A stretch of 64,000 bases of DNA. It comes from Ahrensia sp. Its GTDB lineage: Bacteria; Pseudomonadota; Alphaproteobacteria; Rhizobiales; Rhizobiaceae. Below, in pieces: positions 52,845-55,974 of this stretch. Each line of letters starts with the position of its first letter. The stretch's first letter is position 1. The DNA is taken from contig NZXU01000046.1 of assembly GCA_002698425.1 (NCBI GenBank), positions 1-64,000 on the forward strand, given 5' to 3'. The position numbers were made by a program, and so were the translations under genes. The notes below the pieces were generated by a model, which ran no database searches, had not been told where the DNA came from, and was given only the letters and a program-made list of their open reading frames with translations.

Positions 52845-53600
52845 TCAGGCCGCTTCGTTGATGATGTCGGCGTAGCCATTGGCCTCGAGTTCGAGCGCCA
52901 GGGACTTGTCGCCGGTCTTGACGATCCGGCCGCGCGACAGGACATGCACCGTGTCCGGGACGATATAGTCGAGCAGGCGCTGGTAATGCGTGATGACGAT
53001 GGTCGCGCGGTCCGGCGAGCGCAGCGAGTTCACGCCGTCGGACACGACCTTCAGCGCATCGATGTCGAGGCCGGAATCGGTTTCGTCCAGCACGCAGAGC
53101 TTCGGCTCCAGCAGCTTCATCTGCAGGATTTCGGCGCGCTTCTTCTCGCCGCCGGAAAAGCCGACATTGAGCGGGCGCTTCAGCATCTCCATCGAGATGT
53201 CGAGGCTGCCGGCGGCTTCCTTGACGAGGCGGATGAAGTCCGGCGTCGTGAGTTCGTCCTCGCCGCGCGCCTTGCGCTGCTCGTTCATCGCGACCTTCAG
53301 GAACTGCATGGTCGCCACGCCCGGGATCTCCATTGGATACTGGAAGGCGAGGAAGATGCCGGCGGCGGCACGCTCGGCCGGGTCCATTTCGAGGATGTTC
53401 TCACCATTGTAGACGATCTCGCCCTCGGTGACCTCGTAGTCGTCGCGGCCGGCGAGAATATAGGACAGGGTCGACTTGCCCGACCCGTTCGGCCCCATGA
53501 TGGCAGCCACCTCACCCGCCTTCACGGAGAGGTTCAGCCCCTTGATGATTTCCGTGCCGTCTTCCGCGATGCGGGCGTGCAGGTTCTTGATCTCAAGCAT
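52845..53600 (-). CDS. sufC: Fe-S assembly ATPase SufC
   Basis: 251-aa ABC-type ATPase with Walker A GPNGSGKST (36-44), signature GFSGGEKKR and LCVLDETDSGLDID. It drives the SufBCD scaffold. Unusually, it is separated from sufB by about 900 bases containing a small nuclease gene and two repeat elements. Confidence 0.96.
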   Translation of the reverse strand: MLEIKNLHARIAEDGTEIIKGLNLSVKAGEVAAIMGPNGSGKSTLSYILAGRDDYEVTEGEIVYNGENILEMDPAERAAAGIFLAFQYPMEIPGVATMQFLKVAMNEQRKARGEDELTTPDFIRLVKEAAGSLDISMEMLKRPLNVGFSGGEKKRAEILQMKLLEPKLCVLDETDSGLDIDALKVVSDGVNSLRSPDRATIVITHYQRLLDYIVPDTVHVLSRGRIVKTGDKSLALELEANGYADIINEAA

Positions 53601-53616
53601 TCTTCATTTCCTTTTC

Positions 53617-53808
53617 CCGTCATTCCGGGGCCGCATTCTCTTTTTCGTCATTCCGGGGCCGCGAAGCGGAACCCGGAATCCAGAGCCGTGCGCCCTGCGG
53701 TATTTTTGGCCGTCGAAAGCCATGAATTCCGTCATCCACGAACCAGCCTCGGTCTCGAAACTCTCGGTTCTGGATTCCGGGTTGCGCTCTGCGCCCCCGG
53801 AATGACGG
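53617..53808. repeat. Composite inverted repeat, copy A (between sufC and the GIY-YIG gene)
   Basis: A short half-arm, CCGTCATTCCGGGGCCGC (53617-53634), precedes a long inverted pair: left arm 53646-53687, starting CGTCATTCCGGGGCCGCG and ending CCCGGAATCCAGAGCC, and right arm 53766-53808, starting GGTTCTGGATTCCGGGTTG and ending CCGGAATGACGG. Each arm is itself partly palindromic (ATTCCGGG...CCCGGAAT). The 78-base spacer is unrelated to that of copy B. Confidence 0.85.
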
Positions 53809-53839
53809 CTCCATCGTCTATTCTCCGGCACTCTTTCCT

Positions 53840-54166
53840 TCACTCACCACGTGCACGTATCGCCTCCGACGGATTATCGCGCTCATAGCAAACTTCATAC
53901 AGATCCAGCCAATCGGGATTAAATCCCTCGATCAGTTCGAGCTTCCATGCCCGGCGATATGTCTTCAGCTTCTTTTCTCTCTCGATCGCTTCGACGATGT
54001 TGTCATGCCGCTCATACCAAACCAGCGTCTTGCACCCGTATTTCGAAGTAAAGCCCGGCGTTTCTCCGCTACGATGCTCATAGGCTCTGCCCTGCAGATC
54101 GCTGGTCACTCCGACATAGATGGTCCCGTTTCGCTTCGACGCCATCATGTACACCCAGCCAGTCAC
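53840..54166 (-). CDS. Small GIY-YIG nuclease-family protein
   Basis: 108-aa single-domain protein of the UPF0213/GIY-YIG type. VYM (5-7) and YVG (17-19) form the two-strand signature, Arg27 and His31 lie on the first helix, and Glu62/Glu64 supply the metal-binding acid. The family cleaves DNA, but functions of these small stand-alone members are largely unknown. It sits inside the conserved suf operon and is bracketed by two copies of the same composite repeat, which suggests it arrived with them. Confidence 0.9.
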   Translation of the reverse strand: MTGWVYMMASKRNGTIYVGVTSDLQGRAYEHRSGETPGFTSKYGCKTLVWYERHDNIVEAIEREKKLKTYRRAWKLELIEGFNPDWLDLYEVCYERDNPSEAIRARGE

Positions 54167-54177
54167 TACTTACCTCG

Positions 54178-54362
54178 CCGTCATTCCGGGACCGCCTCTT
54201 TCTCCCTCGTCATTCCGGGGCCGCGCAGCGGAACCCGGAATCCAGAGCCGAGCGTTTCGTCAATTCACTCCGATCAGAATTCTCATGTCCAACATCGTCA
54301 TCATTTTCTTCCATCTCTCGGGTCTGGATTCCGGGTTCCGCAAAGCGGCCCCGGAATGACGG
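54178..54362. repeat. Composite inverted repeat, copy B (between the GIY-YIG gene and sufB)
   Basis: Same architecture and orientation as copy A, 562 bases away: half-arm CCGTCATTCCGGGACCGC (54178-54195), left arm 54208-54249 and right arm 54321-54362. The outer arms are nearly identical to copy A, while the spacer differs. The interval 54167-54504 holds this element and no further gene. Confidence 0.85.
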
Positions 54363-54504
54363 TTTGCGCTCAGCGCTAAAACCCCGCCAGTCCCGACAGA
54401 AAGGACACTATGCGCCCAATCCAGCTTTTCTCGTTCCGTTCCTTCAGAAACCGGTAGCGCTCCGGTTTTTCTTTTTCCCTATGTTCCTTCACTTCCGACA
54501 AGCG

Positions 54505-55974
<1,470 letters not shown>

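Follow-up and report, generated by a model that had tools for sequence, protein, structure and literature searches.

CGTC REPs are a described class of bacterial REPs with a CGTC head, an 8-9 bp stem that begins with AT, a 4-5 nt loop and a CCA tail (PMC3733652, Di Nocera et al. 2013). They occur mostly as paired units, predominate in alphaproteobacteria and have also been reported in Neisseria and Bacteroidetes (PMC3733652). Di Nocera et al. sought genes for tyrosine and other transposases, described these repeats as apparently lacking a dedicated transposase, and left their mode of spread open (PMC3733652). Their text makes no mention of 'GIY-YIG', the main text of RepRanger 2025 (PMC12306157) contains none of 'GIY', 'nuclease' or 'transposase', and we found no paper linking GIY-YIG or DUF559 with REPs in the open-licence literature, a body of work that does not include preprints. 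Here we describe a locus in which a small GIY-YIG nuclease gene sits between arms of the CGTC type, within a 64,000-nt stretch of DNA that we refer to as the window. We read this locus as a REPtron-like unit in which a UPF0213-type GIY-YIG nuclease would be the dedicated partner of CGTC REP hairpins, and we infer that it acts through binding, cutting and repair; we put the probability of this reading at about two in three (0.68).

The nuclease gene lies in the 904-nt gap between sufC and sufB (53601-54504; Table 1). On each side of it stands a composite consisting of an 18-nt half-arm and then an inverted pair of 38-nt arms, and composites A and B together enclose a single ORF, that of the nuclease, which has GAGG immediately 5' of its GTG, on inspection a possible ribosome-binding site. 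The inverted pairs are 88% complementary in A (53646-53688 / 53765-53807) and 91% complementary in B (54208-54252 / 54317-54361), and the arm bodies are 86 and 78 nt apart, respectively. Between composites, the left arms are 96% identical over 48 nt and the right arms 88%, while the spacers are unrelated, which agrees with the first-pass annotation's description of two direct copies of a half-arm plus inverted pair around the gene. The repeat search of the window returned no repeat family covering either spacer. The sequence GTCATTCCGGG occurs six times in the 64 kb, always at the GIY-YIG locus, against 0.04 expected from shuffles, and a scan of both strands for a CGTC or TGTC head, a stem of at least 7 bp and a CCA-like tail recovered exactly the four full arms of the two composites. 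As single-stranded DNA the composites have folding z-scores of -6.2 and -10.4, and each left arm alone makes a complete hairpin, with unpaired CGTC, an 8-bp stem, a bulge, an inner CCGC/GCGG stem and unpaired CCAG.

Table 1. Features of the nuclease locus and its flanking genes, in window coordinates.
Feature	Position	Strand	Basis and remarks
sufC (flank)	52845..53600	-	ORF and comparison with relatives
Half-arm, composite A	53617..53634	+	CGTC head and 5' hairpin half only
Full CGTC hairpin arm, composite A left	53646..53683	+	CGTC...CCAG; repeat search, folding, arm scan
Spacer of pair A	53684..53769	.	Unrelated to spacer B; covered by no repeat family
Full CGTC hairpin arm, composite A right	53770..53807	-	Repeat search, arm scan
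GIY-YIG nuclease gene	53840..54166	-	108 aa, GTG start; ORF call and Pfam PF01541 (E 5.9e-15)
Half-arm, composite B	54178..54195	+	11 nt from the nuclease gene start codon
Full CGTC hairpin arm, composite B left	54208..54245	+	Repeat search, folding, arm scan
Spacer of pair B	54246..54323	.	Repeat search
Full CGTC hairpin arm, composite B right	54324..54361	-	Repeat search, arm scan
sufB (flank)	54505..55974	-	ORF and comparison with relatives

Set beside the published definition, the window arms have the unpaired CGTC head (TGTC and CCTC are also allowed), an 8-bp stem whose first pairs are A-T and T-A, and an unpaired CCAG tail. Where CGTC REPs have a loop of 4-5 nt, the window arms have a bulge, then an inner stem of 4 bp closed by a 3-nt loop; loop variants have been reported for these REPs (PMC3733652), and in other Rhizobiaceae the 30-nt arms carry loops of 5 nt. 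Exact-pattern arms number one to nine per genome in the six of 12 genomes that have any, and arms of the 30-nt type reach up to 90 per genome in other Rhizobiaceae.

The window protein matches the Pfam GIY-YIG family (PF01541) at 55.8 bits, with a cut-off of 22.6 and an E value of 5.9e-15. This is its sole Pfam match, with no NUMOD, transposase or other domain found by Pfam besides GIY-YIG, and NCBIfam returned no model at E 0.001. Y6, Y17, R27, E64 and N83 are invariant in 33 aligned GIY-YIG sequences, and we take these conserved Y, Y, R, E and N of the family to be the predicted catalytic residues. When an AlphaFold2 model of the protein (mean pLDDT 89.3) was used in a fold search, 1zg2 (UPF0213) was the sole match below E 0.001 (E 1e-4), followed by 1ywl and Slx1 at E 0.02-0.05 (Slx1 at E 0.05, probability 0.99). 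Slx1 is a nuclease that acts on branched DNA. By sequence and modelled fold, the window protein is a stand-alone UPF0213-type GIY-YIG nuclease of predicted activity.

The arrangement recurs well beyond the window. We called a gene framed if an inverted repeat scoring at least 16 spanned it, within ~200 bp on each side. A search of the genome collection with the window protein gave a first, alphaproteobacterial set of 53 loci, of which 51 were counted and two at contig ends dropped; 27/51 of these GIY-YIG loci were framed, compared with 0/1020 random intervals of the same loci. The first-pass annotation's idea of a REP-like unit with a GIY-YIG nuclease as its sole protein, likened there to REP-associated transposases, is well supported outside the window too. 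A second set, made up of paralogs and the best-scoring Rhizobiaceae loci (34 after one contig-end drop), had 23/34 framed vs 0/680 intervals, or 22/33 without the one locus that duplicates the first set. Framing was also found in a further alphaproteobacterial sample (14/30 vs 1/600), in a Bacteroidota sample (10/29 vs 0/580) and in named records of the plasmid collection (13/17 vs 7/340). Loci dropped at contig ends were L048, L057 and L127 in the first and second sets and L198 and L244 in the further samples. The centre genome of the further alphaproteobacterial sample is named Bordetella, and we treated the sample as alphaproteobacterial because its DNA is 85-89% identical to Brevundimonas. 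The Bacteroidota sample was drawn from the phylum of a Flavobacteriaceae MAG (the phylum of G312), which we take to be Bacteroidota; Por_Secre_tail, which is typical of Bacteroidota, was present in 2/10 proteins tested from the sample. We consider the association of gene and arms well shown in the alphaproteobacterial and Bacteroidota samples. A CGTC/TGTC-like tag, by a loose pattern, accompanies 19/27 framed loci of the first set and 21/22 of the second set without the duplicate; most exceptions are Sphingomonas-type loci, and Sphingomonas arms have no CGTC tag. The remaining 24/51 loci of the first set have no spanning inverted repeat at score 16, and since about half of the GIY-YIG loci are thus unframed, some members may act otherwise or have lost their arms.

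Could REPs simply be insertion hot spots, and the gene one of many passengers? REPs have been reported as targets of insertion sequences (PMC1525189), and the sufB-sufC junction harbours varied unrelated small genes, both of which would fit. But other ORFs in the same first-set loci are framed in only 1/177 cases (1/104 for ORFs with intergenic space on both sides), the exact arm pattern is rare genome-wide yet found at the gene, and, as described below, arms match the gene copies they accompany and unit copies begin at arms. This passive explanation was already disfavoured and we regard it as very improbable.

Individual records show how the arrangement varies. The GIY-YIG gene of Aeromonas caviae has CGTC arms on both sides. 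Among named records without framing, Photobacterium has arms on one side and Rhizobium tumorigenes on one side at a distance, Spirosoma has a pair on the left and a short match on the right, and no arms were found at the Planktothrix gene. The GIY-YIG gene of Neisseria gonorrhoeae is surrounded by CGTCATTCCCGCGCAGGCGGGAATC-like CGTC repeats, presumably of the dRS3 kind, and may be the partner of this dRS3-type neisserial repeat; in NZ_CP119140.1 (L176), six CGTC repeats lie within 300 bp either side of it. In the Bacteroidota sample, one locus (L326, G671:C86:44000-47500) holds three tandem GIY-YIG copies, which are spaced by ~420 bp and share 89-93% identity; recombination between repeats may have amplified them.

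Across 12 genomes the exact arm pattern gave 28 matches, all in six genomes, and the reversed control pattern gave none. Those six genomes have 17 GIY-YIG matches, and 11 of the 28 arms stand no more than 250 bp from one of them, where the fraction of sequence concerned would predict ~0.02; in G002 (4.0 Mb) the sole two exact-pattern arms flank a GIY-YIG gene. A repeat that was common genome-wide and unenriched near GIY-YIG genes would have counted against the original proposal; with 28 arms in 6/12 genomes and 11 of them near the gene, we see the reverse. Arms are also matched to particular gene copies. For ten of the eleven GIY-YIG copies in G440, the match between a copy's own left and right arms averages 17.7, vs 9.4 for those of others, a value reached in 5/20,000 permutations; the copy's own partner arm is strictly the best in 6/10 copies, with 4/10 not best-matched to their own. 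This matching resembles the RAYT rule of one gene per REP type (PMC6006769). Across 50 distinct 30-nt arms, standard pairs fill 96.9% of 450 pair cells, where shuffles reach 78.3% and slid controls at most 51%, and 6/9 stem pairs vary on both sides, a count for which the search pattern fixed the outer stem and left the five inner pairs free. The pairing kept across these arms indicates that the arm hairpin is under selection. We also considered the arms as a terminator or regulator only; their match to gene copies, and their position at the limits of unit copies, led us to reject this as the whole explanation.

The presence of the gene also goes with the number of arms. Of 199 Rhizobiaceae genomes, 99 have a GIY-YIG match, and at least three 30-nt arms are found in 48/99 of these vs 10/100 without the gene (Fisher 1.3e-9, kinship uncorrected; control pattern 0). 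There are exceptions on both sides: 7/100 genomes without a detected gene have at least five arms, and 37/99 with the gene have no 30-nt arms. Within one genus of five genomes, the gene is present in three (G167, G229, G901) and absent in two (G281, G081), and pieces matching a query of two arm pairs number 85, 47 and 59 in the former and 13 and 16 in the latter; these pieces were counted on both strands and so are not copy numbers. Among the matches listed for the two genomes without the gene (6/13 in G281, 7/16 in G081), there is one arm pair, in G081. Co-occurrence of this kind would also be seen if the enzyme removed or tamed REP cruciforms and was kept where REPs abound, with the arms regulating its expression. 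Such a maintenance role gains from the Slx1-like fold and from the position of a half-arm in the window, at 11 nt from the start codon, but it leaves unexplained both the different arms of different gene copies in G440 and the whole-unit copies that start at arms in G174 (see below), and we think it distinctly unlikely.

We also looked for a hidden RAYT partner. A match to the RAYT family, Y1_Tnp, exceeds the cut-off in 1/24 genomes, and the five genomes of the genus above have no match at all; a RAYT partner was rejected on these grounds. The sole match over the cut-off (G071:C7:54549-54905, L318) contains one in-frame TAG and comes from a genome with 86 30-nt CGTC arms.

Copies of the unit within genomes suggest where its ends lie. 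When four of the seven GIY-YIG copies of G174 were aligned, similarity began at CTTCGTC in 4/4 and ended at GACGAAG in 3/4, the fourth being cut within the right arm, and the flanks beyond the units differ, apart from a CTCCC/GGGAG palindromic repeat, of the kind seen round DUF559 genes, that L340 and L353 share upstream of the unit. In G205, two units reach from the outer CGTC at one end to the outer CGTC at the other. The two loci compared in G166 have nearly identical arms and gene, with unrelated spacers and flanks, a mosaic that looks like conversion between copies. Of the ten paralog pairs checked for arm-bounded copies, G174 and G205 were thus clear and G166 mosaic; G679, G671, G792 and G803 were tandem or complex, G729 proved to be two ends of one contig (99.96%), similarity in G440 was confined to part of the gene, and G756 gave nothing. 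Arm pairs away from the gene show related features. G167 contains dispersed pairs with near-identical arms and very different spacers, and 4/4 relatives lack two of its arm pairs at the orthologous intergenic sites, where the flanks are ~75-88% identical; at one of the two sites, two relatives have other sequence instead. Between Shinella HZN7 and WSC3-e, one intergenic region differs, but the other strain has another repeat there. In the same two strains (L189/L190, ~95% identical), the arm pair left of the GIY-YIG gene has conserved arms and a very different spacer, as if the spacer had been converted from another pair. No target-site duplication and no base-exact empty site was found at the G167 sites, in the Shinella pair or at the sufB-sufC junctions. 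Within Sphingomonas, Brevundimonas and Rhizobium, congeners have the GIY-YIG gene in the same place, as is reported for RAYT genes, so it is often stable rather than mobile.

These copies might instead be the work of a homing-type selfish gene, a free-standing homing nuclease that would use REPs as its target and only travel with them, the REPs having another means of spread. The GIY-YIG fold is one of homing nucleases (PMC1564403), and the G166 loci look as if a gene had passed by copying from one REP site to another. Against this, arms are fewer where the gene is missing, they match the gene copy that they frame in G440, and the window protein has no Pfam domain besides GIY-YIG. On balance we consider homing of this kind unlikely.

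We favour the dedicated-partner reading, and speculate that it might operate as follows. The enzyme would recognise the hairpin of its cognate arm, folded from single-stranded or supercoiled DNA, and would nick or cut near the CGTC/CCA base. GIY-YIG enzymes hydrolyse DNA and form no covalent protein-DNA link, so copying would be left to host repair, which might restore the broken end with another REP locus as template or let it be captured elsewhere. In this way arms and arm pairs (REPIN-like units) could spread, with arms homogenised and spacers unrelated, and now and then a whole arm-gene-arm unit would be copied. Recognition and cutting of the hairpin would yield matched arms and covariation, and the repair-copy step would yield identical arms with unrelated spacers as well as occasional unit copies.

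The site itself deserves comment. The first-pass annotation saw a conserved sufB-sufC junction split at this point, and the window does have a GIY-YIG gene in the gap there, but in the family this junction is a variable cargo site rather than a conserved one. Among relatives whose junctions were compared, those of L147, L148, L150 and L157 are ~75-115 nt; the closest relative, L146 (SufC 96%, SufB 98%), has a junction of ~560 nt with other sequence and no GIY-YIG match. More widely in Rhizobiaceae, several hundred nt of varied sequence occupy the junction in some members (the window, L146, L149, L151-L154, L173, L174), and in relatives it houses various unrelated small ORFs. The near relatives' junction is either short or holds other cargo, and none provides a base-exact empty site. 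The nuclease gene without repeats at this site in relatives had been named as a finding that would weigh against the unit; instead, 13/13 inspected sufB-sufC genes have CGTC-type arms on at least one side; by coordinates, five further genomes also have a GIY-YIG gene beside sufB. The 13 genes carry different, lineage-specific arm families, with Azospirillum, Shinella and relatives, Roseitalea and relatives, and Ahrensia each having their own. On a GIY-YIG tree, built on few alignment columns, the sufB-sufC location requires five changes, at least three of them forced, so the junction was probably entered more than once.

DUF559 (PF04480) was meant as a control family, chosen because one such gene adjoins sufC and sufB in Sphingomonas parapaucimobilis, where it is located between the two. 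Alphaproteobacterial DUF559 genes turned out to be framed by a CTCTCCC/GGGAGAG palindromic repeat, at 14/30 loci vs 0/600 intervals. The repeat family is roughly CCCTCTCCC...GGGAGAGGGTTAGGGTGAGGG (L362-L391, for example L381, L384, L378 and L371; also L003:1838-2248). DUF559 and its repeat are possibly a second REP-nuclease pair, and their framing hints at a wider rule of REP-associated nucleases. It is tempting to suppose that REPs are spread by more than the HUH RAYT class, namely by several unrelated small nucleases, each with its own repeat superfamily (GIY-YIG with CGTC, DUF559 with CTCTCCC), through cutting and repair copying, or 'REP homing'; we hold this tentatively, at somewhat less than even odds. 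Because such nucleases are hydrolases they would cut, and repair would copy the repeat, which would explain identical arms around unrelated spacers.

Framing in many bacteria suggests that the GIY-YIG enzyme is the missing partner that spreads CGTC REPs. Since the nuclease is framed by its repeats and has diversified with them, a single small protein and a single hairpin would be enough to put the question of their spread, left open in 2013, to a direct test. If the reading holds, it also points to a role for the many genes whose sole annotation is 'GIY-YIG nuclease family protein', and it may extend to DUF559.

How, then, does the locus compare with known systems? It has the inverted ends of an insertion sequence, but no known transposase domain by Pfam. 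It shares a nuclease fold and mobile genes with free-standing GIY-YIG homing endonucleases and differs from them in that the window protein carries no NUMOD or other Pfam domain and is flanked by its own arms. Within the GIY-YIG superfamily it is like UPF0213 and Slx1-like proteins in sequence and fold (PMC1564403; PDB 1zg2, 1ywl); the string 'palindrom' is absent from the text of PMC1564403, and the sections consulted yielded no link between GIY-YIG and repeats. It resembles the CGTC REP families in the CGTC head, the AT-starting stem, the CCA tail and the mostly paired units, and differs in the bulge and inner 4-bp stem of the window arm and in having an enzyme, no dedicated one being reported for those families (PMC3733652). 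With the REPtron (RAYT/TnpA-REP, HUH-Y1) it shares a layout in which a single small enzyme gene has REPs or REP pairs on either side, usually with one gene to each REP type and several types in a genome; also shared are a stable gene with dispersed repeats and a tagged hairpin with an unpaired head (PMC6006769, PMC3733652). The differences are that RAYT is an HUH-Y1 enzyme with a GTAG tag (PMC6006769, PMC3733652), whereas here we find GIY-YIG with a CGTC tag, and that Y1_Tnp is not over the cut-off in 23/24 genomes here. Since enzyme fold and tag differ, the unit would be REPtron-like in its working and not a REPtron by membership. If so, it would stand beside the REP/RAYT paradigm as a second, mechanistically different solution, one of cut and repair.
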